From NCBI GenBank assembly GCA_029266615.1, contig JAQSWN010000043.1, forward strand, positions 1 through 64,000: a stretch of DNA of 64,000 bases. The letters run 5' to 3'. Below the pieces are notes generated by a model, which saw only the letters and a program-made list of their open reading frames with translations, was not told where the DNA came from and did not search any database. This DNA is from Polyangiaceae bacterium (lineage in GTDB: Bacteria > Myxococcota_A > Polyangia > Polyangiales > Polyangiaceae). The position numbers were made by a program, and so were the translations under genes. Positions 41,416-61,591 of the stretch are shown in pieces (position 1 is the stretch's first letter; every line of letters begins with the position of its first letter).

Positions 41416-44400
41416 TTGCACGCACTGACAGAATTTTCCGCGCCCGTGCGCCACTGGTTTTCGAAGAGCTTTCGCGCTCCCACGCGCGCGCAGAGCCTGG
41501 GCTGGGCCGCGATTCGCGAAGGAAAATCCACGCTGCTCTTGGCGCCCACCGGCTCCGGCAAGACGCTCGCGGCATTTTTGTCGTCGCTCGACCGGCTCAT
41601 GACACAGCCGGTGGAGGGGGAAGGGTTGAAAGTCCTCTATGTCTCCCCGCTCAAAGCGCTCGCGGTGGACGTGGATCGCAATTTGCGGGCGCCAATCGCG
41701 GGAATTCGCGCCGCCGCGGCCGAGCTCTCCGTTCCAGTGCGAGAGCTGGACGTCGCGACCCGCTCCGGCGACACCTCGGTGAAAGATCGCTCCCGTTTCC
41801 AGCGTTCCGGGGCAGATTTGCTGATCACGACGCCGGAGTCGCTGTACCTGCTGCTGACCTCGCAAGCCGCTCGCCATTTCGCCTCGCTGCAGACCGTCAT
41901 CATCGACGAGATTCACGCGCTCTTGCCAACGAAGCGCGGAGCGCACTTGTTTTTGTCCTTGGAGCGATTGGAGGCGATGCGCACGAGTGACAAGCCGCTC
42001 CAGCGCATCGGCCTCTCCGCCACCCAGCGCCCCTTGGACGAAGCCGCGCGCTTGCTCGGCGGTTACTTCTTCGCGCCGGGCAACGAGCACCCCCAACCCC
42101 GCCCGGTGGAGATCGTGGACGCGCGGATGCCGCCCCGCTTGCACGTGGAAGTCCGAGCAGCGGCCCGCAGTGCGGGGGAGCCCACGGCTGCCGATCCGAA
42201 TGCGCTGTCGGCTCCGCCCGCCGCGGCCTCGCCTAAATCGAACTGGCCGGAGATTCACGCGCCCTTGTTGGCGTTGATTCAAGAGCACCGTTCGACGCTC
42301 ATTTTCGTGAATAGCCGGCGGCTGGCGGAACGCCTCGCGCAAAGCTTGAACGAGCTAGCCGGCAGCGAAATCGCGCTCGCGCATCACGGCTCGCTCGCCA
42401 AAGACCAGCGCGCCTTCGTCGAAGATCAGCTCAAGCTCGGCAAGCTACGCGCCCTCGTGGCGACGTCTTCGCTCGAGCTCGGCATCGACATGGGCGCCAT
42501 CGACTTGGTGGTGCAGGTCGAGGCGCCGCCCACGGTCGCGTCCGGCTTGCAGCGCATCGGCCGCGCCGGCCACAGCGTGGGCGAAACGTCGCACGGCATC
42601 GTGTTCCCCAAGCACAAGGGGGAGCTGCCAGCGGCAGCCGTCGTCGCGCGCGGCATGCACGAAGGCGCGGTGGAAGCGACGCGCTACCCGCGCAATCCGC
42701 TGGACGTGCTGGCGCAGCAAATCGTGGCCGCGGTCGCCAACGCGCCGCTCACGGACGGCGCCATCTACGACTTGTGTCGGCAGGCGGCGCCCTTCGCGGA
42801 GCTGCCGCGCGCCTCGTTCGACGGCGTGCTGGAGCTGTTGGCCGGGCGCTACCCTTCGGACGAGTTTTCGGAGCTGCGGCCGCGCATCACTTGGGATCGG
42901 GTCAGCGGCGAAATCAGCGCCCGCGCCGGGGCCAAGCGCATCGCGATCGTGAGCGGCGGCACCATCCCCGATCAGGGCCTTTATGGCGTGTTTTTGTCCA
43001 ACTCCGAAAAGCCGGTGCGCGTCGGGGAGCTGGACGAAGAGATGGTGTTCGAGTCGCGCGCGGGCGACGTATTTTTGCTCGGCGCAAGCTCTTGGCACAT
43101 CGACGAGATCACCCATGACCGTGTGCTCGTGAGCCCGGCGCCGGGCCAACCGGGGAAGATGCCGTTCTGGCGCGGTGGGGGTCCGGGCCGACCCGTGGAG
43201 CTCGGGCGAAAGATTGGCGCCCTGACGCGCGAGCTGCTGGACATTCCGCTCTTGCGCGCAGCGGAGGTACTGAAAGAGCAGCACGGGTTCGACAGCGGCG
43301 CGAGCCAGACCTTGCTCGAGTACTTCTACGAGCAGCGCGCGGCGACGTCCGTGGTACCGAACGACCGCGCCATCGTGGTGGAGCGGTTCAAGGACGAAGT
43401 CGGAGATTTCCGAGTCTGCATTTTGAGCCCCTTCGGGCGCCGTGTGCACGCGCCGTGGGCGATGGCCCTGGCGGAAGGCTTTCGTAACCGCTCGGGCGCG
43501 GAGCTCGACGCGGTGTGGTCGGATGACGGAATCGTGCTCCGTCTACCGGACACGGAGGAGCAGCTCTCGGCCGAAGAGTTCGCGCCGGATCCGGACGAAG
43601 TCGAGGCACTCGTGGTGCAGGCGCTCGCCAAGAGCTCGCTATTCGCCGCGCATTTTCGCGAGAACGCGGGACGGGCTTTGCTGCTCCCGAAGCGAGACCC
43701 CAGGCGCCGCACGCCGCTCTGGGCCCAGCGCCGCCGCGCTTCGGACCTACTGCGCGTCGCCAGCCAGTACCCGTCGTTTCCGATGATTTTGGAGACGTAC
43801 CGCGAATGCTTGCGAGACGTCTTCGATCTACCGGCGCTCGTGGAGCTACTCCTTCAGATCCGTCGGCGCGAGGTGGCGCTGGTGCCGGTGGACTCACAGA
43901 GCCCGTCGCCTTTCGCCAGCACGCTCTTGTTCTCGTACGTCGGCAATTTCATCTACGACGGGGACGCGCCGCTCGCGGAAAGACGCGCGCAGGCGCTGGT
44001 CTTGGATCAGGCAGAGCTTCGTGGCTTGCTGGGCGAAGCGGAGCTCCGCGAGCTGTTCGACGCGGAGACGATCGAAAGCGTGGAGCGCGACTTGCTCAAG
44101 CTGCGCGAGCCGAGCCTCCGCCACGGGGACGACGTGCACGACTTGCTGCTCCTGCTCGGCGATCTCACGCTCGCAGATTTGGAGGCAAGGGCCCACGACC
44201 CCGCGGCCCTGCCCGCCATCTTGCACGAGCTCCAAGCCGCGCGACGCGTCGCGCGCGCCCACATCGCCGGGGAAGAGCGCTATTTCGCGGCAGAAGATGC
44301 GGGCAAGTTGCGGGACGCGCTCGGGGTCATGCCCCCGGCCGGCTTGCCCAGCACGTTCCTCGCTCCGACGACGGACGCGCTGCGCGAGCTGATTTCCCGC

Positions 44401-45858
44401 TTCGCTCGCACGCACGCACCCTTCACCAGCGACGTGCCAGCGCGCCGCTACGGCTTGGGTCGCGGGGTCGTGGAATCCGCCCTGGTTCAGCTGGAGGACG
44501 CCGGGCGCGTCGTGCGTGGCGAGTTCCTACCTGGCGGCCACGAGCGAGAGTGGTGCGACAAGAACGTGCTGCGGCAGATCAAGCAGCGCAGCTTGGCCAA
44601 GCTCCGGCGCGCCATCGAGCCGGTACCGCCGGAGGCTTTCGCGCGGCTCGCGCTCGCCTGGCAAGGAGCGCAAGAGCCGTCCCGCTCGACGGACGCGCTC
44701 GAGCGTGCCATCGATCAGTTGCAGGGTGTGCCCATCGCCGGCTCCGTGCTGGTGCAAGACGTGCTACCGGCGCGCGTGCGCGGGTTTAGCCCTTCGGATT
44801 TGGACAGCTTGCTCGCCACCGGGGAGCTTACTTGGGTCGGCGTGGAGCCGCACGGCTCGAGCGACGGCAAGGTTGCGCTTTACCGCAACGACAAGCTCGC
44901 GCTGCTGGCGGCCGTGCCCGTCCCGGCGCCGGGCGAATTGCACGCCAAGCTGCGCGCGGAGCTCAGCCAAGGTGGAGCGCTATTCTTCGCGGATCTCGCG
45001 CGGCGCGTCGGCGGTTTCCCGCGGGACTTACTGGGCGCGCTGTGGGACCTGGTTTGGTCGGGCGAGGTGACCAACGACACGCTCGCGCCGCTTCGCTCGC
45101 TGCAAGCCGCCGCCAAGGCGCCGCGCGGCCGCCCCGATCCCCGCGCGCGCCGAAGCCAGATGCCCGGCAGCGAAGGCCGCTGGTCACTGATACGGCGCGA
45201 CGCCGCCGGCAGCGTCGCGGAGCAACGCGCGGCGCGCGTACGCTTGCTCTTGGATCGACACGGCATCTTGAGCCGCGAGATCGTGAACGCGGACGGCATG
45301 GGCAGCTTCGCTGAGCTCTACCCGGTGCTCAAGGCGATGGAGGACGCGGGCAAGGTGCGGCGCGGCTACTTCATCGCCGGCTTGGGCGGCGCGCAGTTCG
45401 CGCAACCCGGCGCCGACGAGCGGCTGCGCCTGAAGCCGGACGACAAGCCCGCGGTCGTGCTTGCCGCCACGGATCCGGCCAACCCTTACGGCGCTTCCCT
45501 CCCCTGGCCCCCCGGTGAAGCGCGCCCCCAACGCGCCCCCGGAGCGCTGGTCGTGATTCGCCAGGGGCGGTTGCTCGGCTACCTCGGCAAGAGCGACCGT
45601 TCGCTGTCCTTGTTTCTCGCCGAAGAGGAGCCTGAGCGCGGGCATCAGCTCTCCGCCCTCCTCGCCGCGCTCAAGACGCTCGTCGGGCCAAGCAAGCGCC
45701 GCGTGCTCTTGATTCAGACCATCGATCGCGAAGACGCGCCGCGCTCGCGTTTTGCGCCCGCGTTCTTGGCGGCCGGGTTCGGCACGGGCGCCTCGGGTCT
45801 CAGCCTGCGGCGTGGTCTCGCACCGGTAGACGACGAAGACGAGCTGGAAGACGCGTAA
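41416..45858 (+). CDS. lhr: Lhr-like ATP-dependent helicase (large helicase-related protein)
   Basis: 'LAPTGSGKTLAAFLSSLDRL', 'VIIDEIHAL', 'GLSATQRPL', 'SLELGIDMGAIDLVVQVEAPPTVASGLQRIGRAGH', about 1480 aa. Confidence 0.95.
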   Translation: MHALTEFSAPVRHWFSKSFRAPTRAQSLGWAAIREGKSTLLLAPTGSGKTLAAFLSSLDRLMTQPVEGEGLKVLYVSPLKALAVDVDRNLRAPIAGIRAAAAELSVPVRELDVATRSGDTSVKDRSRFQRSGADLLITTPESLYLLLTSQAARHFASLQTVIIDEIHALLPTKRGAHLFLSLERLEAMRTSDKPLQRIGLSATQRPLDEAARLLGGYFFAPGNEHPQPRPVEIVDARMPPRLHVEVRAAARSAGEPTAADPNALSAPPAAASPKSNWPEIHAPLLALIQEHRSTLIFVNSRRLAERLAQSLNELAGSEIALAHHGSLAKDQRAFVEDQLKLGKLRALVATSSLELGIDMGAIDLVVQVEAPPTVASGLQRIGRAGHSVGETSHGIVFPKHKGELPAAAVVARGMHEGAVEATRYPRNPLDVLAQQIVAAVANAPLTDGAIYDLCRQAAPFAELPRASFDGVLELLAGRYPSDEFSELRPRITWDRVSGEISARAGAKRIAIVSGGTIPDQGLYGVFLSNSEKPVRVGELDEEMVFESRAGDVFLLGASSWHIDEITHDRVLVSPAPGQPGKMPFWRGGGPGRPVELGRKIGALTRELLDIPLLRAAEVLKEQHGFDSGASQTLLEYFYEQRAATSVVPNDRAIVVERFKDEVGDFRVCILSPFGRRVHAPWAMALAEGFRNRSGAELDAVWSDDGIVLRLPDTEEQLSAEEFAPDPDEVEALVVQALAKSSLFAAHFRENAGRALLLPKRDPRRRTPLWAQRRRASDLLRVASQYPSFPMILETYRECLRDVFDLPALVELLLQIRRREVALVPVDSQSPSPFASTLLFSYVGNFIYDGDAPLAERRAQALVLDQAELRGLLGEAELRELFDAETIESVERDLLKLREPSLRHGDDVHDLLLLLGDLTLADLEARAHDPAALPAILHELQAARRVARAHIAGEERYFAAEDAGKLRDALGVMPPAGLPSTFLAPTTDALRELISRFARTHAPFTSDVPARRYGLGRGVVESALVQLEDAGRVVRGEFLPGGHEREWCDKNVLRQIKQRSLAKLRRAIEPVPPEAFARLALAWQGAQEPSRSTDALERAIDQLQGVPIAGSVLVQDVLPARVRGFSPSDLDSLLATGELTWVGVEPHGSSDGKVALYRNDKLALLAAVPVPAPGELHAKLRAELSQGGALFFADLARRVGGFPRDLLGALWDLVWSGEVTNDTLAPLRSLQAAAKAPRGRPDPRARRSQMPGSEGRWSLIRRDAAGSVAEQRAARVRLLLDRHGILSREIVNADGMGSFAELYPVLKAMEDAGKVRRGYFIAGLGGAQFAQPGADERLRLKPDDKPAVVLAATDPANPYGASLPWPPGEARPQRAPGALVVIRQGRLLGYLGKSDRSLSLFLAEEEPERGHQLSALLAALKTLVGPSKRRVLLIQTIDREDAPRSRFAPAFLAAGFGTGASGLSLRRGLAPVDDEDELEDA

Positions 45859-50436: not shown

Positions 50437-51324
50437 CTAAAGCGCGATCTCCACTTCCACGCGCTGGCCGAGCTTCAGCGGCATCGGCTCCGTGAGCTCG
50501 ATTTTGACGACCAGCACGCGCGTGTCCACCGGGCGTGAAGGGTCGAGCGCGCGCAGCGAGCGGGGCACGACTCGATTGGGAATTTCCGACACTCTTCCGC
50601 GCCACTTCGTTTCGTACCCCTCCGCGCGCACGGTCACGTCGGCGTGGAGACGGACGCGGCCGGCGTCGAACTCGCCCACCTCTGCTTCGACGCGTAGGTG
50701 GCTCAAGTCCGTGAGCGTGACGAGCGGGGTACCGGCGCTCACCATCTCCCCCGGATCCGCGAAGCGCTGGGTCACGGTAGCGTCGATGGGCGCGATGACC
50801 TTGGACTTGGAGATACTGGTGGAGATGCGCTCGGCGCCCGCCAGCAGCGAGGCGCGACGGGTCTCGGCCAGGCTGGAGTCGTGCACGCTGCGGTCGAGAG
50901 AGGCCTCCGCGACCACACGGCTGCGAAACAGCTGCTCGCTCCGCGCGCGCTCGCGCGCCGTGAAGTCCACGTCCGTTCTCGCTTCTTTGACGCGCGCCCA
51001 GGCTTCGTTCAACGCCGCGCGCTGCTCCTTCACGTCCACCTCGCCGAGCACGTCGCCCGCCTTCACCCGGTCCTGCTCCTTCACCGAGAGCTGCAGCAGC
51101 TTGCCGGAGAGCTCGGCTCCGAGCGTGATTTCGGCGCCAGGCGGCACCGCGACGCGCCCTTCTGCGAGCACGCTATGCAGCAAGGGGGACGCAGGCTGGG
51201 CCTCCGCCCGCGGGATAGCCTGGCCAGCTCGAAATTGCTTCCACTCGTAGGCTCCGACGCCGAGCAGGAGCGAGCCGAGGACGAACGTACTGGCGTGAGA
51301 CTTCAGGCGCTGAGCGATGGACAT
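50437..51324 (-). CDS. HlyD/MacA/DevB-type membrane fusion (adaptor) protein
   Basis: N-terminal TM, lipoyl-like 'PPGAEITLGAELSGKLLQLSVKEQDRVKAGDVLGEVD', 'VIAPIDATVTQRFADPGEMVSAGTPLVTLTDLSHL'. Confidence 0.9.
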   Translation of the reverse strand: MSIAQRLKSHASTFVLGSLLLGVGAYEWKQFRAGQAIPRAEAQPASPLLHSVLAEGRVAVPPGAEITLGAELSGKLLQLSVKEQDRVKAGDVLGEVDVKEQRAALNEAWARVKEARTDVDFTARERARSEQLFRSRVVAEASLDRSVHDSSLAETRRASLLAGAERISTSISKSKVIAPIDATVTQRFADPGEMVSAGTPLVTLTDLSHLRVEAEVGEFDAGRVRLHADVTVRAEGYETKWRGRVSEIPNRVVPRSLRALDPSRPVDTRVLVVKIELTEPMPLKLGQRVEVEIAL

Positions 51325-51338
51325 GCGGTTACTCCCCT

Positions 51339-52013
51339 TCAAGCTGTGATTGTTCCGTCTTCGATGCGCACGACGCGATCTGCGACGCGGCGGACCTTGG
51401 GGTCGTGCGTCACGATCAGGAGCGAGCGCCCTTCGCTACGCGAAAGCTCGCTGAAGAGATCCAAGATCTGGGTGGCGACGGTAGCGTCGAGGTTCGCGGT
51501 CGGCTCGTCCGCCAGGATCACGGCCGGCGCCGCCGCCAGCGCGCGCGCGATCGCGACGCGTTGCTTCTGCCCGCCCGACAGGTCGCGCGGCAAAAACCGA
51601 GCTCGATCGGAGAGGCCTACCCGACCGATGAGGGCCTCGGCTTGCGTGGTCGCCGACTCCCCGACAACGCCCTTGAGGTTGAGCGCGTACTCTACGTTTT
51701 CCTGGGCGGTGAGCGCCGGGAACAGGTTGAACTGCTGAAAAACGAAGCCAATGTGACGGCGACGCACCGCTTGCAGCTTGGACGGCTTCGTCGCGTCCAC
51801 CGCCTCCCCCGCGACCTCCACTCGGCCGCTGCTCGCACTGAGCAGGCAGCCCAAGATGGAGAGCAAGGTCGTCTTCCCGGAACCGGACGGCCCCTCCAGG
51901 GCCAACACTTCTCCCGGCGATAGATGCAGCGTCGCGCCCTTGAGCACGGTCACGCTCTCGCGCCCTTCGCGGAAGGTTTTGGTCACGTTCTCGGCTACGA
52001 GCTGGTACGTCAT
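51339..52013 (-). CDS. ABC transporter ATP-binding protein (LolD/MacB/DevA type)
   Basis: '[15 protein letters not shown]', 'LSGGQKQRVAIARALAAAPAVILADEPTANLD'. Confidence 0.95.
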   Translation of the reverse strand: MTYQLVAENVTKTFREGRESVTVLKGATLHLSPGEVLALEGPSGSGKTTLLSILGCLLSASSGRVEVAGEAVDATKPSKLQAVRRRHIGFVFQQFNLFPALTAQENVEYALNLKGVVGESATTQAEALIGRVGLSDRARFLPRDLSGGQKQRVAIARALAAAPAVILADEPTANLDATVATQILDLFSELSRSEGRSLLIVTHDPKVRRVADRVVRIEDGTITA

Positions 52014-52021
52014 GGGGCTCC

Positions 52022-53149
52022 TCAGGTTCGGAACACGAGCGCAGGGTCGATGGTGGCCACCTTGCGGAAGCTCACGATCGCCGACGCCAAGCAGAGCAGC
52101 AGCGTGCCGACCAGCACCACCGCCGTCACCTCCGGCTCGATGATGAGCTTGAGGCCCGCCGAGGCGATGACTGGCTTCAAGAGCTGCGCGGGCAAGTAAC
52201 CGAGCACGAACCCGAGTACCGCGCTCACGGTGGCTTGCTTGGCCAGCATCCGGTAAATGTCCAGATTGCTGCCGCCAATCGCCTTGACGGTGCCGAACTC
52301 TTTGAGGTGCTCCATCGTGGACGTGTAGAGGGTCTGCGCGACCACCACGACGCCCACCAAGCAGCCCAAAAATACCGTCAAAAATGCATTGAAACCAAGC
52401 CCGGTGTTCTCGATCCAGTAGCTGCGCGAGCGCTCCGCCCACTCGTGGGTCGTGAACACGTCGTTGTATGGCAAGCGCCGTGAAAGCTCCGCGCGCACCG
52501 CGGCCGGGTCCGCACCAGGCAAAAGCTTCACGACGATGTACGAGGTCTTGCCGCTCAAGAGCTCCGGCTGCAGCTCCTGGGCCCGGCGGAAGTCCATGAA
52601 CGCGAGGGGAGTCGTCGTGAAGCTCTTGGCCTCGCGCGAGGTGCCGATGACCTTCAGCCGTTGTCCATTCACTTCGCGGTAGTCACCGGTTCGGAACGGG
52701 CCGAAGCGCTTGCTCGCGGATTCGTCGAACATGACGAAGGAGCCGCGCTTCAAGTCGTCCAGATCCCCGGACGTGACCTGCCACGGCACGCCCCAGCGCT
52801 TGAAGTCGTTCATCGCGTAGACGATGGTCGTCTCCTCCGCGCCGGTCGGCAGGGCCACCTGCATGAAGGACAAGATCAAGTTATCGGCGCGCGCTACGCC
52901 CGGCACCGAGCGAGCCCGGTACAGGTTGCTGTCCGGGAACTGATGAACGAAGTCCAGATTCGGCGAGTTCTTGCTCGTGACCCACAAATCTGCGTCCAGC
53001 TTGCGGATGGTGATGGTCGAGTTGTCGAGCAGGCCAACGAACAACCCCACTTGCACCAAGACCAGCGTGACCGCGAAGGCCACCCCGGAGACGGTGATGA
53101 GGAAGCGCACTTTGTCGTGCAGCAGCGTTTTTAGCCCCAAATCGACCAT
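52022..53149 (-). CDS. FtsX-like permease (DevC-type)
   Basis: Four-TM FtsX pattern; 'DKVRFLITVSGVAFAVTLVLVQVGLF', 'LKEFGTVKAIGGSNLDIYRML'. Confidence 0.88.
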   Translation of the reverse strand: MVDLGLKTLLHDKVRFLITVSGVAFAVTLVLVQVGLFVGLLDNSTITIRKLDADLWVTSKNSPNLDFVHQFPDSNLYRARSVPGVARADNLILSFMQVALPTGAEETTIVYAMNDFKRWGVPWQVTSGDLDDLKRGSFVMFDESASKRFGPFRTGDYREVNGQRLKVIGTSREAKSFTTTPLAFMDFRRAQELQPELLSGKTSYIVVKLLPGADPAAVRAELSRRLPYNDVFTTHEWAERSRSYWIENTGLGFNAFLTVFLGCLVGVVVVAQTLYTSTMEHLKEFGTVKAIGGSNLDIYRMLAKQATVSAVLGFVLGYLPAQLLKPVIASAGLKLIIEPEVTAVVLVGTLLLCLASAIVSFRKVATIDPALVFRT

Positions 53150-53154
53150 ATTCG

Positions 53155-53895
53155 TTACCCCTTCTTGGCGGGCGCTCGGCGCGCGCTCTTGCTCTTGGGC
53201 TTGGCGCCGCCGAGCTCCCAGCTCGCGGTCAGTACCTCGGCGAGCACGCGCTCGGCCGCGGCGCTGTCCCGCATCATGGCTCGCACCAGCGCGCGCAGCG
53301 CCTCCGCGAAGCGGTCCTCGCGGGGCCTGAAATCGACCCACCCGGCCTGCTTTTCCATCACGAGCTCGAGCGAAGCCGCGCCGTGCACCATGGCCCAGAC
53401 CGTCTGCGCGGCCAGGTCCGGATCCGTCACGTCGTCCCGAAGGAAGCCTTCGCGCAACAGCTGCTCCACCAAACCGCGCAGAAAGACGTACGCGTTGCGA
53501 CGCGGATCATCCCGCTCGCCCTCGTCGGGAGGCGGCTCCGGCAGCGGCGTCATGAACATCAGCCGGTAGTGCTGAGGGAATTGCTCGGCGAAGCCCAAGT
53601 ACACGAGCCCTGCCTTCAATATGCTCTCCACCGGGCTCTTGCTGTCGACGACCGCCACCAAGAACCGCTGCGCAAAGTCCGAGAAGTCACGTCGGCACAG
53701 CTCGCGAACGAGCGCGTCTTTATCGGCGAAGTGGTTGTAAAGTGCGGTCGCCGAGTACTCGATCCGCTTGCCGATCTCGCGCATCGTGACCGCCTCGTAG
53801 CCGCGCTCCGCAAAGAGCAGCCGCGCCGCGTCCAGGATTTGTTCACGCATGGCTAGGCGCTCTCGGTCGCGCCGTTCGTTCGTGCCCATGCTCAT
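53155..53895 (-). CDS. TetR-family transcriptional regulator
   Basis: 'REQILDAARLLFAERGYEAVTMREIGKRIEYSATALYNHFADKDALVREL'; start trimmed to ATG at 53895. Confidence 0.95.
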   Translation of the reverse strand: MSMGTNERRDRERLAMREQILDAARLLFAERGYEAVTMREIGKRIEYSATALYNHFADKDALVRELCRRDFSDFAQRFLVAVVDSKSPVESILKAGLVYLGFAEQFPQHYRLMFMTPLPEPPPDEGERDDPRRNAYVFLRGLVEQLLREGFLRDDVTDPDLAAQTVWAMVHGAASLELVMEKQAGWVDFRPREDRFAEALRALVRAMMRDSAAAERVLAEVLTASWELGGAKPKSKSARRAPAKKG

Positions 53896-53900
53896 GCCTA

Positions 53901-53947
53901 AACGCTGTTCCAAGACTTAACAGCGTTAACCTGAGGAACGCTGTTAA
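53901..53947. promoter_or_regulatory. Triple half-site operator (candidate TetR binding site)
   Basis: AACGCTGTT (53901-53909), AACAGCGTT (53919-53927), AACGCTGTT (53937-53945): alternating orientation, exact 18-bp steps; the second pair extends to 11-bp arms TTAACAGCGTT/AACGCTGTTAA. Confidence 0.8.
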
Positions 53948-54015: not shown

Positions 54016-55404
54016 GTGGCCACCCGAGGTCGAGGTTACGTACGCCGCCCCGCTTTGGAGCCGCCCGCCAACGCCCCGTCCGCCTCCGATCGCACGACGA
54101 CCGAGGCTTCGGCCCTGCTCGCCCTTTCCGCCCGTGCGCCGAAGCTCGAGTTGTCCACGCTGGACCTGTGCTTCTTGGCCACGCTGTACCTGCGGGGCCA
54201 GAGCTCCGGGCACTCATCCTTTGGAGAGGAGCAGCTGTTCGAGCACTTCGAGCAGGCGGCGCAGGTCGTGGAGCGGGACCCGAGCTCGGTACGCAAGCGG
54301 GCGACGCACGCCATCGCCCGCCTACGCGCCCAGCGGCTGCTCTCCCGAGTGGACGGCGCAGGCGTCATGCGCGCAGGCGAGTACGCATTGTCCCGGCTCG
54401 GGGCCGGCATCGTCAGCTTCTTCTTGGAAGAAGAGGTGCTCACGGCCGAGACGCTCACGCTCCTGACCCGCACGTTGGAGAACAGTCTGCGAGACGTGCT
54501 GGAAAAGGCACGCGCAGCCAAAGATTCGGCGGCGTTGGAAGGGGCGGTGGTCGGCCCGCTCAAGGTCACGGTGCACGAGCTCATGGAGGGCATCGAGCGG
54601 CGCCAGCGGGGGCTCGATCTGCAGCAAGAGCAGTTCCAAAAAGAAATCTCGTCGCTGCTGAGCGCGGACTGGTTCGGAGCCGTGGAAAGCTGCCAGGCAT
54701 TGCTGGAGAGCACCGCGTCGACGTTGCGCGATTTGAATCACGTGCTGCTCTCGGAGTCGCACCGCCTCCAGTCGCTGCTCGAAGACTTGCAGGAGCTTGC
54801 GCTCGCGACGCAGGCTGCCGCCGCCGAAGAGGCCATCCGCCGCGCGGCGGACCAAATCGACCGCATCGCAGCGTGGAGCTCTGGGCGGCAAAAGTCCTGG
54901 TCGGACTACTACCAGTACGTGCACCGCTACCTGCGGGACGTGGTCCGGCTCGATCCGAGCCGAGCGCTGACGGCGCGCCTTCGTGACCAGCTCAGCGGCA
55001 AAGCCGGTAAGCGCTTCACGCTCGCGGTCGCGCACACATCGGCGCCGCTCTTGCTGCGCGACGTCGAGCAGGCCCCCGATCGCCCACCGGTAAAACGGCC
55101 ACGCGCCGAGCGCGAAAAGCCGCCTGAAGAGCAAGCCGTGGAGGACCCGCACGCCGCGATGGAGGATGCGGTTCGGGCGCGACTCGACGCTGGCGCGGAG
55201 AGCTTGCGGGACGTCACTCAGCAGATCACCGCGGAGCTGCCGGAAGACCAGCGTTTTCGCGCCGCGGGCCGCGTTGCCCAAGCCGTCGCCAAGCTGGCGC
55301 GCACCAAGTCCTGCCGCGAGCGGCCCTGGCTCGCCGTCGACGAGAGCTTCGCGATCGAAGAGTGGACGTTGCCTCGCAAGGAGGGCGCCGGAGGGCGCGG
55401 TTAG
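54016..55404 (+). CDS. mukF: MukF-like kleisin of a MukBEF condensin
   Basis: N-terminal winged-helix-like region; 'KEISSLLSADWFGAVESCQALLESTASTLRDLNHVL' and 'QIDRIAAWSSGRQKSWSDYYQYVHRYLRDVVRLDPSRALTARLRDQL' align by eye with E. coli MukF. Confidence 0.9.
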   Translation: MATRGRGYVRRPALEPPANAPSASDRTTTEASALLALSARAPKLELSTLDLCFLATLYLRGQSSGHSSFGEEQLFEHFEQAAQVVERDPSSVRKRATHAIARLRAQRLLSRVDGAGVMRAGEYALSRLGAGIVSFFLEEEVLTAETLTLLTRTLENSLRDVLEKARAAKDSAALEGAVVGPLKVTVHELMEGIERRQRGLDLQQEQFQKEISSLLSADWFGAVESCQALLESTASTLRDLNHVLLSESHRLQSLLEDLQELALATQAAAAEEAIRRAADQIDRIAAWSSGRQKSWSDYYQYVHRYLRDVVRLDPSRALTARLRDQLSGKAGKRFTLAVAHTSAPLLLRDVEQAPDRPPVKRPRAEREKPPEEQAVEDPHAAMEDAVRARLDAGAESLRDVTQQITAELPEDQRFRAAGRVAQAVAKLARTKSCRERPWLAVDESFAIEEWTLPRKEGAGGRG

Positions 55405-55407
55405 AGC

Positions 55408-56388
55408 ATGGAGACGGAAACGCCCCGCACGTTCGAGGATTTGGCGCAGGTCGTGGAGCACGAGTTGTTCCCCGACGTGGATCTCGCGCTGCGCCGCGGC
55501 CGCCACGTAGACCGCGAAGACGGCGCCTGGTACGGCTTTTTGACGGACGCGCAGGCGCACCTCGAGCGCTTCTACCGACGCTACGGCGCGGAGTTGGTGC
55601 AGCGCACGGACGGGTTCTTCTTCCTGTTGCCGAGCGGTGACAAGCTCGGCCGGCGTCACCTCTCGCCGAGCGAGATGCTGGTCGGACAAGGGCTAACGCT
55701 GCTCTACCTCGAGCCCGCCACGGTGGAGCAAGGGGGCATGACGACGCGTGAGCATCTGCTCTCGCAGCTCTCCACGACGATGGGCACCGAACAGCTGATG
55801 GCCGCTTTCAACGGCGCCAAGAAGAAGCGAATCGACGAACGCGTCGCGCAGGAGATGGTGCGGGCGCGCGTGAGCGAGGCCGTGCGGCGCTTGGCAAGCC
55901 TTGGGTTCGTGGATCTACTGCCCGAGGACCGAATCCGTCTGCGCTCTTCGTTGATGCGCTTCGCCGAGCCCGTGCGCGGCAACGGCGCGGAGCTGGAGGC
56001 GCTCAATCGCCTGGTCGCTTCCGGCGAGATTTCGCTCACCGGCGGGGACGAATCCGACGAAGACGAGAGCGTCGCCGAGGCGGTGACGGAGCGCGCGCCG
56101 AAGCGTGGCGCGCAGGCCATGCCGGTCACGGAGTGGAACGAGGGCAGCGAGTGGGGCGCCTCTTTCGAGAACGAGTCGACCGAAGACGCGCCGCCGCCCG
56201 AGTACGTCGCCCGTGAGTCTGCGGAAACGCCTGCGGAAACGCCTGCGGAAACGCCGACAGAAACGCCTGCAGAACCGACTCCGCCAAGCCCAGAAGCGCC
56301 TCCCCCCGAAATAAGTCCGCTCCCGGGCGATGAAGAAGAGTGGTCATACGGTAGCGACGAAGAGCGCGAAGAAGAGGAGCTGCCGTGA
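55408..56388 (+). CDS. mukE: MukE-like condensin subunit with ETPA-repeat acidic tail
   Basis: 'LFPDVDLALRRGRHVDREDGAWYGFLTDAQAHLERFYRRYGAELVQRTDGFFFLLP' and 'ARVSEAVRRLASLGFVDLL' match MukE; acidic C-terminus. Confidence 0.9.
   Translation: METETPRTFEDLAQVVEHELFPDVDLALRRGRHVDREDGAWYGFLTDAQAHLERFYRRYGAELVQRTDGFFFLLPSGDKLGRRHLSPSEMLVGQGLTLLYLEPATVEQGGMTTREHLLSQLSTTMGTEQLMAAFNGAKKKRIDERVAQEMVRARVSEAVRRLASLGFVDLLPEDRIRLRSSLMRFAEPVRGNGAELEALNRLVASGEISLTGGDESDEDESVAEAVTERAPKRGAQAMPVTEWNEGSEWGASFENESTEDAPPPEYVARESAETPAETPAETPTETPAEPTPPSPEAPPPEISPLPGDEEEWSYGSDEEREEEELP
56221..56275 (+). repeat. 12-bp coding tandem repeat (ETPA units) in the mukE tail
   Basis: gcggaaacgcct repeated, giving AETPAETPAETPTETPAEP. 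Confidence 0.85.
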
Positions 56389-59300
56389 GCCGCGCGCGGG
56401 CCACGGCGCTCGCGCTGGTGAACTGGAAGGGCGTCTTCTACGAGCGCTACCAGCTCGACCGGCGCGTGACCGCGCTGGAAGGGTCGAACGGCGCGGGCAA
56501 GACGACGGTGATGATCGCCGCTTACATCGTGCTCTTGCCGGACATGACCCGGCTGCGCTTCACCAACCTGGGGGAGACGGCGGCAATCGGCGGCGATCGC
56601 GGCATTTGGGGCCGCTTGGGCGAGCCGACGCGTCCCTCGTACGCGGCGCTCGAGCTGGATCTCGGCGAAGGCAAGCGGGTGATCGCGGGCGTGCTGTTGA
56701 CGCGCAAGGCGGAGCCCACCTTGGAGCTTACGCCATTTTTAATCAGCGACCTCCAGCCCGGCGTGCGGCTTCAAGACTTGCTGCTGCTCGTCACGGGGGA
56801 AGAAGAAGCCGTTCCGGAGCTGCAAGAGGTTCGGGACAACGTCGCGGCCGCGCAGGCGCGCATCGAGGTGTTCCCCACCGCGAAAGAGTACTTCGCGGCG
56901 ATGTTCGAGCTCGGGATTGGCGCGCTGCGGCTTGCCAGCGACGAAGACCGCGGCCGTCTGGGCGACATGCTGCGCACCAGCATGACCGGCGGCATCTCTC
57001 GAGCCATCACCGCGGAGCTGCGCTCGTTCTTGCTGCGCGAACAGGGCAGCATCGGCGACACGCTGAGCCGCATGCGCGAAAACTTGAACGCGTGCCGTCG
57101 CACGCGCATCGAGGTGAGCGAGTCGCAGCTTCTCGAGCAGGAGATCTCCGGCGTGTACGACGCTGGCCAGGGCATGTTCGCCGCCGCCTTGCAGGCGACG
57201 CGCGAGCTGGCGCGTGAATCGCGCCTGGCCGCAGCGCGCCTGGAAGAGCACGCGGCGAGGGCCCGCAAGACGCTGGAAGAAGAAAAGCGCGCCGCGGACG
57301 CGCTGGAAGAGCGGGAAAACGAGCTTGCCGAGCAAGTGAAGGAGCGCCGCACGGCGCTCGAAGCGCTGCGTGAGCGCGCCCGCAAGTCCGCGAGCTTCGA
57401 GTCGCTGAGCGCGATTTTGCGTGACGTTACGCAGGAGCGAGGCGCGGCCGCGGAGCAGGTCGAGGTCGCTCGCAAAGGGCAGCAGCATGCCGCGGCTCAA
57501 CGCGAAGCGGAGAAGCAAAAGCGCGAAGCCGCGCGTCAAAATCAGGAGCGAGCCGCGTTCGGCCTCGCTGATTTGCAAGCCGGTCTGGACGAGCTGCATC
57601 GTCGCTCCAGCGCGTACCGTCAGGCCCAGCGCCTGCTAGCGGAAGTCGAGTCGCTTTTACCCGGCGAGCCCGCGAGCGCGGCGGACCTTCCCGAACGGCT
57701 GCAGGCCGCAGCCGCGCGGCTTTCCGAGCTCGACGCGGAACGACTGGGGCAGGAGCGTACGCTCGCCCTCGCCGAGCAGCGCCGCGCCGAGTGGACGCGC
57801 GCACTCGAGCTTTCGAAGGAGCTCGGGGCTACGGGCGAGCCTCCGTACGACGCCGCGCAGGGCGCGCTCGCGGAGCTGGCACGTGCCGAGCAGCGGCTAG
57901 CCGAGAAGCCGGCGCTTTCGCTGCGACAACGTGAGCACCAAAGGCTGCGCGAACGTCAGAGTGCGGTCCGCAAGGCAGCGTTTTCCCTCGGACTCGCGAC
58001 GCAAGCGGAAGTCGAGCAGCGCCTGGAGACGGCCGAGACCGAGCTGCAGAGCGTCGAAGCTCGCAAACGTGAGCACGAGGAAGCGCAGCGGCACCTCGCG
58101 GCAGAGCGGAAGCTCGCCGCGCAGCAGCTGGCGCAAGCTCAAGCCGGGGTCGGCAAGTTCCGTCGGCTGGAGCAGCGCGCCGAACGCATCAGCCAGAGCG
58201 CAGGCCCGTTCTCACCGACGCGGGACGCGCTCCTGCGCCTCCGTGACAGCCTGACCAGCGAACGCCAGGAGCTGTCCCTTGCGCTCGAGCAGGCCACCGC
58301 GGAGCGCGAGCAGTTGCTGCACGACGCGAATCACCTGGAAGCCTCGGGCGGGCAATTTTCGGCGGAGCTGCTCAAGCTGCGCGACGAGCTGGACGGCGAG
58401 CTCCTCGGCAATCGCTTCGAGGAGCTCAATGTCAAGGAAGCCGCGCGCCTGGAAGCGCTGCTCGGCCCCCTCGCGCAAGCCATCGTCGTGGACGACGTCG
58501 CGGTCGCGGTTGCGCAGCTGCGTGACAAGCCGCGGGAGCTTGCCGAAGTGCGGCTCGTTGCGGCCGGTACGGATCTGAGCTTTTTGGAGCCCGTCGCGGA
58601 CGAAGCGGGCAAGGACGCGTGCGTGAACGAAGGCCCCGCTCTCCGCGTCACGCGTCGGCCGGAAAAGCCGTCGCTCGGGCGAAAAGCGCGCGAAGCGCGC
58701 ATCGAAGAGCTGCGCCGCGAAGCCGTCAGCGGAGGCGTCGAGCTGGAGAAGCGCCAGGCCCGGCTCCGCGCGGTGACCGCCGCTTTGGCGGAGCTCGATC
58801 AGCTGCTGCCCGACGCGGAGCTGCTGGAGCGCGGCGATCCCTCGGAGCTAGCGAAGCAGCTGCAGGCTCGTGAAGCGCAGCTCGTAACCGAGGAGCAAGC
58901 CGCGGCCCAGGTCGTCGGCGAGCTTGCCGCCGCTGCCGATGAGTCTCGCGCGCTGACCGCTCGGCTACGCAGCTTGCTCCCGGAAGCGTTCCTGCTCGAC
59001 GCCGAAGACCACGCTGCGGCCGCGGGCGCCTTGGGCGAAGAGCTTTCGCGTTTGGAACGGCTCGCGACGGAGCTCGCTTCCAAGCAGCGCACTCGTCAAA
59101 AGCTCGCGGCGCTGGTGGAGGCGCTGCGCGTGCCACCGCCGAGCGATGAAGACTTGGCGCGGGTCGACGCCTCCCGTGACGAGCTCTCGCGCGAGCGGGA
59201 TCGCGTTTACCGGCTGGTGAACGTGCTCACCCAGCTCTGTCGGGACTTGCCCGCGCTGGGCTGGGAGGACGCGGAGCGGTCGCTCTCCAGCCGGGAGCAG

Positions 59301-60809
59301 GTCGCGCCCGCGCTCGAGGAGCAACACCAAGTCGCGCGCGCCGCCCTGCAAGCGGTCGAAGAGGCCGTGCAGCGCGCCGAGCAAGAGTGGGAGCACGCGA
59401 CGAGCGAGCTACAAAAGGCGGACGCGGCGCTATCCGCGGTGTCGGCGCACGAGAGTCGATTGAAGAGCGAGCTCGCGAGCCTGGGTCTCTCCGCCGACCT
59501 CACGCCGGAGCGGGCGGCCGCGGAGCTGTCCGAGCTGACCACCCTGACCGAGCGCCTCACGTTGGAAGAACGCGACCTGCTGGCCCGGCGCGGAGCCCAG
59601 GCCGAGCGCGTGCGACAGCTCGGCCAAGCGCTGGGTCAAGCCCAACGCGATCTGTCCGAAGCGCAAGCCGCGGCCGCGCCGGCCGAAGCGCGCTGGCAAG
59701 CCCTTCGCGCCCACGCGGAGCGCGCCTCGGTGCTGCACTCGGGCGAGTCCAGCGAGCACGACGAGCCTCGCTCGGCGTTACAGCTCGCCGCGGAGGCTCG
59801 GAGCCGCGCGGCGTTGCTGCGCGATCGACTCGACGCAGCGCGCGGTGGCGACGCCCTCGCGCGCGAGGTCGGCGAGCAGCGGCTCGAGCAAGACGACGAC
59901 TTTCTCGCCTTGTGGCTGCGCGTGCGCGAATGGCTGGCGCGGCGCGTCCCCGCCCAGGTCGCGCAAGTGGAGGACCCGCTGTTGGCGCTCGAACGCCTGC
60001 GCGGGCACCTGAGCGTGCTCGAGCAGCGCCTCGCTCATCAAGAAGCGGACTTGCGCGGTGCGTCCGAGGACGTGGCGCGCGGTATCGAGGTGCAGCTGCG
60101 GCGCGCCAAGGCTCAGGTGCGGCGTTTGAATCAGAACCTGACCGGCGTGTCGTTCGGCAGCATCGCCGGTATTCGTGTAGAGATGCGCCGCTCTCAGCAG
60201 ATGGAGCCGGTGCTGCGCGCGCTCGCGGAAGGAAGCGCTCAGGAGCTGCTATTCCAAAGCAGCTTGCCGACGGAAGAGGCCTTGAGTGAAATCTTGCGAC
60301 GATACGGCGGCGGACGGAGCGGGGGCGGGCGCGTATTGGACTACCGCGAATACCTGGAGCTCGTGGTGGAGGTGCAGCGCAAGGCCGACGGCAACTGGGA
60401 ACCTGCCAATCCTACCCGCCTATCCACGGGCGAAGCGATCGGCGTCGGCGCCGCGCTCATGATGGTCGTGCTCGCCGAGTGGGAGCGCGACGCCAACCTG
60501 CTGCGGGCCCGGCGTGGGCCCGGCTCCTTGCGCTTCTTGTTCTTGGACGAAGCGAACCGTCTCTCGCAAGACAATCTGGGCTCGCTCTTCGACTTGTGCG
60601 AGAGCCTGGATCTGCAGCTGCTCATCGCCGCCCCGGAGGTCGCGCGGGCCGAAGGCAACACGACGTATCGGCTCGTGCGCAAGGTGACCGAGGACGGGCG
60701 CGAAGAGGTGATCGTCTCCGGTCGCCGCGCGCTCGGAAGCGCGGAGCCTGAACCTGCCGTTGCGCCGCCTCTAGCTGCCGTTCAGCAGGGCTCTTTGTTC
60801 GAGAACTGA
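56385..60809 (+). CDS. mukB: MukB-like SMC ATPase
   Basis: GTG start overlapping the mukE stop; Walker A 'EGSNGAGKTT', hinge 'LLGPLAQAIVVDD...PSLGRKAREARIEEL', signature 'LSTGEAIGVG', Walker B 'LRFLFLDEANRL', end 'NTTYRLVRKV'; 1474 aa. Confidence 0.95.
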   Translation: MSRARATALALVNWKGVFYERYQLDRRVTALEGSNGAGKTTVMIAAYIVLLPDMTRLRFTNLGETAAIGGDRGIWGRLGEPTRPSYAALELDLGEGKRVIAGVLLTRKAEPTLELTPFLISDLQPGVRLQDLLLLVTGEEEAVPELQEVRDNVAAAQARIEVFPTAKEYFAAMFELGIGALRLASDEDRGRLGDMLRTSMTGGISRAITAELRSFLLREQGSIGDTLSRMRENLNACRRTRIEVSESQLLEQEISGVYDAGQGMFAAALQATRELARESRLAAARLEEHAARARKTLEEEKRAADALEERENELAEQVKERRTALEALRERARKSASFESLSAILRDVTQERGAAAEQVEVARKGQQHAAAQREAEKQKREAARQNQERAAFGLADLQAGLDELHRRSSAYRQAQRLLAEVESLLPGEPASAADLPERLQAAAARLSELDAERLGQERTLALAEQRRAEWTRALELSKELGATGEPPYDAAQGALAELARAEQRLAEKPALSLRQREHQRLRERQSAVRKAAFSLGLATQAEVEQRLETAETELQSVEARKREHEEAQRHLAAERKLAAQQLAQAQAGVGKFRRLEQRAERISQSAGPFSPTRDALLRLRDSLTSERQELSLALEQATAEREQLLHDANHLEASGGQFSAELLKLRDELDGELLGNRFEELNVKEAARLEALLGPLAQAIVVDDVAVAVAQLRDKPRELAEVRLVAAGTDLSFLEPVADEAGKDACVNEGPALRVTRRPEKPSLGRKAREARIEELRREAVSGGVELEKRQARLRAVTAALAELDQLLPDAELLERGDPSELAKQLQAREAQLVTEEQAAAQVVGELAAAADESRALTARLRSLLPEAFLLDAEDHAAAAGALGEELSRLERLATELASKQRTRQKLAALVEALRVPPPSDEDLARVDASRDELSRERDRVYRLVNVLTQLCRDLPALGWEDAERSLSSREQVAPALEEQHQVARAALQAVEEAVQRAEQEWEHATSELQKADAALSAVSAHESRLKSELASLGLSADLTPERAAAELSELTTLTERLTLEERDLLARRGAQAERVRQLGQALGQAQRDLSEAQAAAAPAEARWQALRAHAERASVLHSGESSEHDEPRSALQLAAEARSRAALLRDRLDAARGGDALAREVGEQRLEQDDDFLALWLRVREWLARRVPAQVAQVEDPLLALERLRGHLSVLEQRLAHQEADLRGASEDVARGIEVQLRRAKAQVRRLNQNLTGVSFGSIAGIRVEMRRSQQMEPVLRALAEGSAQELLFQSSLPTEEALSEILRRYGGGRSGGGRVLDYREYLELVVEVQRKADGNWEPANPTRLSTGEAIGVGAALMMVVLAEWERDANLLRARRGPGSLRFLFLDEANRLSQDNLGSLFDLCESLDLQLLIAAPEVARAEGNTTYRLVRKVTEDGREEVIVSGRRALGSAEPEPAVAPPLAAVQQGSLFEN

Positions 60810-60970
60810 GTGAGGCCTCCGACGCTCGTCGCGGAGGAGCTCAACCTGACCTTGAGCCGCTCGACGGCAGCGCGCAGCGAGCGCCACTGCGCCAGCACCT
60901 CCACCGTATGCGCATGAGCGTTGGCGGGTGGCCGAGCGCCGCGCTTCGCCACCTTCGAGAGCTCCGACAT
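60782..60970 (-). CDS. Putative 62-aa small protein convergent with mukB
   Basis: MSELSKVAKRGARPPANAHAHTVEVLAQWRSLRAAVERLKVRLSSSATSVGG...; plausible composition, no homology recognised. Confidence 0.25.
   Translation of the reverse strand: MSELSKVAKRGARPPANAHAHTVEVLAQWRSLRAAVERLKVRLSSSATSVGGLTQFSNKEPC
60816..60837. terminator. Hairpin just downstream of mukB
   Basis: cctccg-acgctcgtcg-cggagg beginning 7 bp after the mukB stop. Confidence 0.35.
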
Positions 60971-61260
60971 CGCACAGGTAACTCATCGCAGCGCCGTCCC
61001 CAGCAGAGAACGCGCCAATGAACGACCGGCGCAAATGAGGGAAAATAGGCTGAAATGGATTGAAGGAGGGCGCACCGTCCCCCAGACCTGACGCTAGCCG
61101 TCATCGTTCTGGCGCCTGCTCTCGCACGAGCCCTCGTTGCATCCACACGTTCAAGCGGGCTGGTCGACCTAGCTTTGGTTGAAGTTAAAAAGCTGGTCGT
61201 TGTCGCCGCACGAGCGCGCACTGACGCACGGGTTCTAGAGGAGTGCCGTCGTGAGCGTGC

Positions 61261-61335
61261 TCAGCGGAGTCCGAAGAAGGACAGCACCGCGATGACGACG
61301 ACGACCAAGCCCACGATGTAGATGATGTTATTCAT
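61261..61335 (-). CDS. 24-aa single-helix membrane protein (MNNIIYIVGLVVVVIAVLSFFGLR)
   Basis: Contained in a longer track ORF; sequence resembles short conserved hydrophobic proteins seen in several proteobacteria (from memory). Confidence 0.6.
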   Translation of the reverse strand: MNNIIYIVGLVVVVIAVLSFFGLR

Positions 61336-61591
61336 GCGACGCCCCACAGCAAGCGGAATGCCAAATGCGACAATCGCGCAAGAACGCGCTTTGGAGCGGA
61401 ACCTGAGTTTCGTACGAACATGAAATGCATGGCGGGATGCCACGGTGGTTGCAAAATGCTCCAACCGAGTGCGCTCTTCACACCCACTGCGAGCGAACGC
61501 GGCCCGTGAGACGGGCTCGCGTAACGCGCCACCGACCACGACCGCTCCGACGGTGGCACGCCTCCTGCTTTTCTCTCGTGCGAGGCCGGAC

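Follow-up and report, generated by a model that had tools for sequence, protein, structure and literature searches.

A nuclease-free MukBEF operon in a Polyangiaceae genome and its nuclease-bearing relatives

Genes of the operon

The window analysed here, a stretch of 64,000 nucleotides from the Polyangiaceae bacterium contig JAQSWN010000043.1 (66261 bases), carries a complete operon for a MukBEF structural maintenance of chromosomes (SMC) complex, made up of the MukB ATPase, the MukF kleisin and the MukE KITE protein. Its genome, called G000 below (other G-numbers stand for the genomes compared and L-numbers for loci), comprises 8.88 Mb in 444 contigs and is 98.2% complete, with an estimated contamination of 7%. 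The three genes form a tight operon, all in the same direction on the forward strand: mukF (54016..55404) encodes 462 amino acids (aa), mukE (55408..56388) 326 aa and mukB (56385..60809) 1474 aa, and both mukF and mukB start with GTG. The mukF-mukE gap is 3 nt and the start of mukB overlaps the stop of mukE by 4 nt, so the open reading frames (ORFs) bear out a first-pass annotation of this DNA, which had described three adjoining or overlapping genes in the E. coli order F-E-B.

That annotation had also judged the proteins to be classical MukBEF rather than MksBEF, and the profile searches agree. In Pfam, MukF matched MukF_M (2.5e-23) and KicB (9.9e-10), MukE matched MukE (7.9e-34), and MukB matched the MukB N-terminal domain (7.3e-71) and MukB_hinge (PF16330, 2.8e-30), the latter at residues 635-782 (58287..58730). 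MukB passed the NCBIfam MukB equivalog over its full length with 857 bits at a cut-off of 699. MukF (291 at a cut-off of 407; full length, 1.1e-86) and MukE (113 at a cut-off of 250) fell below the cut-offs of their equivalogs, but their strong NCBIfam matches were to these Muk equivalogs only; for the window proteins NCBIfam gave no MksB or MksF match, and just 0.0036 for MksE. The best PDB matches were 9gm6 for MukB (1e-92, whole length), 7nyw_C for MukF (1e-32) and 3euh_C for MukE (8e-29). Within MukB, the Walker A region LEGSNGAGKTT (56475..56507) lies in invariant columns of the MukB alignment and aligns with E. coli MukB, JetC and Smc. The ABC signature LSTGEAIGVG (60420..60449) is close to LSTGEAIGTG of E. 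coli and differs from KSGGQKEKLA of JetC type I, and the alignment places the Walker B region, FLFLDEANRL, at 60534..60563.

A separate clade of MukB and its genomic company

We placed the window MukB in a head-domain tree rooted with JetC types I, II and III and Smc; MksB proper was not included. Gammaproteobacterial and non-gammaproteobacterial MukB joined with a support of 93/99, apart from JetC and Smc, and the non-gammaproteobacterial sequences formed a single clade (99/99) sister to the gammaproteobacterial one, the two separating with 99-100% support. Over head and hinge, identity to the E. coli, Proteus and Aeromonas counterparts is ~30-35%, and between members of the non-gammaproteobacterial clade mostly 42-79%; for the window MukB itself the values are 31-33% and 43-67%, respectively. 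Because of the groupings at 93/99 and 99/99, we regard the operon as neither a gammaproteobacterial transfer nor a JetABC system. Judged by these sequences, non-gammaproteobacterial MukBEF is a separate, under-described clade. The first-pass annotation had left the choice between such a clade and horizontal acquisition; the clade stands, and acquisition from gammaproteobacterial owners does not, given the low identity and the well-separated clades.

That the operon is really MksBEF or JetABC and has been mistaken for MukBEF is very improbable. In favour of this, the Pfam profiles for MksE (PF21980, 2.1e-33) and MukE score about equally on the window MukE, and PADLOC JetC profiles give partial, weak matches to MukB (2.4e-9). 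Against this stand the full-length MukB equivalog above its cut-off, the MukB hinge, the MukB-type signature and Walker B, and a position in the head tree with gammaproteobacterial MukB and outside JetC I, II and III; no PADLOC Jet profile matched the window MukE. We rejected this identity on the profiles and the rooted tree together.

The clade is spread unevenly. As far as can be read from the sorted table, MukB was present in all eight genomes that make up the window's genus; it was also present in 25 of the 108 genomes of its family and, counting full-strength MukB heads, in 16 of the 379 genomes of the phylum. Outside the phylum, its members were one UBP9 metagenome-assembled genome (MAG) and one Burkholderia pyrrocinia megaplasmid; the scan of contigs from named relatives, which are undersampled, yielded at least one locus (UBP9). 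A search of viral contigs and phages found no member. These data also bear on whether the operon came recently from Gammaproteobacteria by horizontal transfer or the contig is a contaminant, either of which might be suspected since MukBEF is usually reported from Gammaproteobacteria and the assembly has some estimated contamination. Yet every congener carries the operon, genes upstream of it are also found upstream in G423, and its codon composition resembles that of the remainder of the window. Contamination, raised in the first-pass annotation, is thus dismissed along with gammaproteobacterial transfer; trees and congeners make the pair barely credible, barring a long-branch artefact behind both clades.

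We also looked at the genomic company of the operon. Each of the 24 MukB-bearing family members checked, among them G000, had Smc above cut-off; ScpB was found in 11 of 20 genomes, one of them the congener G339. ScpB was not found in G000, perhaps owing to an assembly gap, so the Smc-ScpAB system thought possible alongside is seen there for Smc and, for ScpB, in a congener. MukBEF does not stand in for Smc-ScpAB here, Smc being present in the same genomes; such replacement is a usual trait of gammaproteobacterial owners and lies outside the definition of the proteins. The same is true of SeqA and MatP, which are genome company and no part of the MukBEF protein definition. The first-pass annotation had named them as usual companions, and neither was detected in the 34 MukB-bearing genomes searched (SeqA 0/34, MatP 0/34, with a positive E. 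coli control).

As a separate observation, the five genomes of family f54 (G184, G252, G234, G257 and G284) all lacked ScpB, and G184 had no Smc above cut-off; this family may have lost or strongly altered Smc-ScpAB irrespective of MukB. G201 likewise showed no Smc above cut-off, and both G184 and G201 are only 85-86% complete. A replacement of Smc by MukBEF in these two genomes was not upheld, in view of the low completeness and of the four MukB-free members of the G184 family that are also without ScpB.

A nuclease gene in relatives and its absence from the window

In eleven systems of the clade (G081, G052, G008, G019, G215, G147, UBP9, Burkholderia, G445, G410 and G444) a gene of ~325 codons lies directly 3' of mukB, overlapping or adjoining it, which gives the kleisin-KITE-SMC-nuclease order of JetABCD. 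Pfam JetD_C (PF09983) was above cut-off in 4 of the 5 products first tested, and PADLOC labelled them, weakly, as JetD1. A profile built for them had a single PDB match, MksG (8b7f, 7.6e-6), and aligned with a type I JetD; the Toprim glutamate (E), DxD and the terminal EQE are conserved across all the MukB-linked proteins. By these motifs the fourth gene is a predicted JetD/MksG-type Toprim nuclease whose catalytic motifs are intact. A single-sequence AlphaFold2 model of the UBP9 protein was uninformative (predicted local distance difference test score, 37.6). MukB and nuclease distances correlated at 0.956 over 55 pairs, and we therefore conclude that the two descended jointly. Genome G410 holds two MukBEF operons besides Smc (L109 and L110), one with the nuclease and one without. 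Wadjet profiles would, on present matches, overlook this nuclease-armed MukB-type system.

In the window, the slot of the fourth gene (60810..61444) is empty, with no remnant of a nuclease gene found 3' of mukB, and the whole G000 genome gave no match to the clade's nuclease profile or to JetD_C. The nuclease was also absent in G339, G007, G311, G306, G184 and G201. In the rooted head tree the window MukB fell within a nuclease-free set (99/91), composed of the members of its family that lack the nuclease plus G306, whose sister is a nuclease-bearing set (100/98) of G081, G052, G445, G410a and Burkholderia; in a larger, 38-row tree the nuclease-free grouping was weaker (67/94). With JetC outgroups the nuclease state needs three changes on the rooted head tree, and likewise three on the 38-row tree. 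This parsimony result and the gene order lead us to favour loss of the nuclease over gain. The opposite course, in which the ancestor of the clade was nuclease-free, some branches captured a JetD-like gene and the window keeps the old state, could draw on the gammaproteobacterial sister clade, which has no nuclease, and on the unsettled basal branching of the non-gammaproteobacterial clade. We consider capture decidedly doubtful, since most early-branching members have the nuclease, always in the JetABCD order, since MukB and nuclease distances run parallel and since all the JetC outgroups used carry JetD, which makes loss more parsimonious. The fourth-gene nuclease of the relatives, the nuclease-free derivative state of the window operon and the absence of SeqA and MatP had all escaped the first-pass annotation.

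The nuclease-free group has further traits of its own. The window MukE ends in an acidic, low-complexity tail of 116 aa with 35 D/E and 5 K/R (56038..56385), and tails of this kind are found across the group. They measure 30-289 aa in this group, 9-39 in nuclease-bearing systems and 22-34 in Gammaproteobacteria, a comparison with no value for G306 and in which the difference is inherited by common descent, so that a p-value for it carries no meaning. G184 and G201, a separate nuclease-free pair, have short MukE tails. Compared with G423, the ratios of non-synonymous to synonymous substitution (dN/dS) were 0.063 for mukF, 0.122 for mukE (core 0.043, tail 0.24) and 0.091 for mukB; the window complex is under strong purifying selection. 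Near the MukB C-terminus, several nuclease-free members carry the pentapeptides QGSLF (window, 60786..60800), QGTLF (G423), QEALF (G442) and QQPLF (G398), and no QxxLF was seen in the short C-terminal tails of nuclease-bearing MukBs. The motif resembles a beta-clamp-binding pentapeptide, a likeness that we offer as a lead only.

Several other observations concern nucleases of this type. Aeromonas caviae KAM479 has an orphan homologue of the MukB-linked nuclease (L066:17865-18890; 341 aa, intact catalytic motifs) ~7 kb downstream of its canonical gammaproteobacterial mukB. This gene has no neighbouring SMC gene of its own; its position may be due to chance or may recall an ancestral operon of four genes. 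Loci L086 (G333) and L087 (G359), from different families, share near-identical segments in which a truncated nuclease of the MukB-linked type adjoins a type III restriction subunit, through either recent transfer or cross-contamination of MAGs. Residues ~107-177 of the nuclease show a weak alignment to a portion of MukE (best E 0.002; L035:4889-5065 and MukE stretches at further loci), perhaps by virtue of a common winged-helix fold. In the nuclease-bearing operon of G019, ~2 kb of ORFs with lower GC at third codon positions separate mukE from mukB (L038:10774-12803); two of them were tested and had no Pfam match.

Function of the nuclease-free complex and its place among known systems

We favour, with a probability of about 0.58, a reading in which the operon encodes a nuclease-free MukBEF loop extruder: it would come from a largely Wadjet-like lineage, have lost the nuclease and, probably, work alongside Smc on the chromosome. 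By homology, MukBEF would be an ATP-driven extruder of DNA loops. Its nuclease-bearing relatives would work in the manner of Wadjet, following the model of PMC10586767: a small circle is extruded to completion, the nuclease is activated and the circle is cut. The subclade to which the window belongs would have lost the nuclease gene and gained the acidic MukE tail, leaving a complex that may fold DNA with no cutting and serve as a second condensin on the chromosome beside Smc, without the E. coli partners SeqA and MatP. Its retention throughout the genus and the purifying selection are why we favour this chromosomal role.

Several points weigh against it. Outside the genus the distribution of the operon is patchy, which is not what one sees for a housekeeping gene, and the surrounding genes are kept between very close species only. 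Backbone nodes inside the non-gammaproteobacterial clade are weakly supported, the long branches between MukB and JetC or Smc make the root uncertain, and only three gammaproteobacterial sequences were included.

Because of the patchiness outside the genus, the complex could still serve defence, either with no cutting, if it compacts or silences the DNA of plasmids or phages, or with the help of a nuclease acting in trans. Nuclease-bearing cousins do lie near defence genes: the Burkholderia operon adjoins CBASS genes (CD-NTase, ThiF, JAB and SAVED), and other nuclease-bearing loci are flanked by DUF1016/YhcG nucleases, an Abi_2 protein and a ResIII/DUF3427 helicase, although the comparison of their flanks with those of nuclease-free loci is rough only. 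For the nuclease-free systems, which have no conserved neighbourhood, we hold a defence role to be unlikely, since the JetD-like gene is absent genome-wide in the nuclease-free genomes tested, the whole genus keeps the operon and none of the annotated genes immediately next to it in the window is a defence gene.

As to these surroundings, an HlyD/ABC/MacB-type transporter and a TetR regulator lie upstream of mukF (50440-53913 of the window); since in G423 the flanking genes stand directly beside mukF, the two seem to have been inserted in the species of the window alone. Farther upstream (41416-45858) are a large Lhr-type helicase of 1480 aa and then a DUF1501 protein, a trypsin-like protease and a Fapy-DNA glycosylase.

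Compared with gammaproteobacterial MukBEF (E. coli, Photorhabdus), the window operon has the same F-E-B order, adjoining or overlapping frames, a kleisin and a KITE protein, no nuclease gene, a MukB of similar length (1474 and 1486 aa) and the same hinge and signature core, LSTGEAIG. It differs in its separate clade and low head and hinge identity, the presence of Smc, the long acidic MukE tail, the lack of SeqA and MatP, and close relatives that carry a nuclease. With Wadjet type I, or MksBEFG (JetABCD), those relatives have in common the four-gene order and a nuclease with JetD_C, E, DxD and EQE; unlike Wadjet type I, their SMC, kleisin and KITE proteins are of Muk type, missed or weakly matched by PADLOC Jet profiles, and their nuclease has ~325 rather than ~390 aa, while the window itself has neither nuclease nor JetC-type SMC. 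The nuclease-free MksBEF of Pseudomonas aeruginosa (PMC10586767) is likewise a second condensin without nuclease beside Smc-ScpAB, but the window family has MukB, not MksB, with a coiled coil of full MukB length. The mukF-mukE-mukB-DUF2220 operon of Burkholderia pyrrocinia pBPJTT (NZ_CP091309) belongs to the same MukB clade, with ~53% identity over 64% of the window MukB; unlike the window operon it has the nuclease, is borne on a megaplasmid and adjoins CBASS genes.

In the literature, PMC4255302 describes MukBEF in some Gamma- and Deltaproteobacteria, coupled to dam, seqA, mutH and matP; occurrence in Deltaproteobacteria is thus already on record, and for seqA and matP the coupling fails in the genomes studied here. 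PMC10586767 restricts MukBEF to enterobacteria and relatives, speculates on a Wadjet origin of MukBEF and gives the predicted intermediate between the two as a hypothesis. PMC7617805, which includes a tree of the Wadjet group, treats MukBEF as lacking MksG/JetD. We found no paper that describes a JetD nuclease in operons of MukB type, although one may exist; the supplement of PMC7617805 may list such operons.

A broader proposal, which we hold at even odds, is that MukBEF is a disarmed Wadjet: a four-subunit defence system of MukBEF plus nuclease would exist outside the Gammaproteobacteria, and loss of the nuclease followed by use as a chromosomal condensin would have occurred at least twice, in the Gammaproteobacteria and in the lineage of the window, which retains the older Smc. 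The operons of this clade include cases in which MukBEF accompanies Smc in genomes that lack SeqA and MatP. As a clade of true MukB in which some systems have the nuclease and some do not, with both in G410, it offers the intermediate state together with a ready pair for experimental comparison, and the origin of MukBEF as a defence weapon becomes directly testable.

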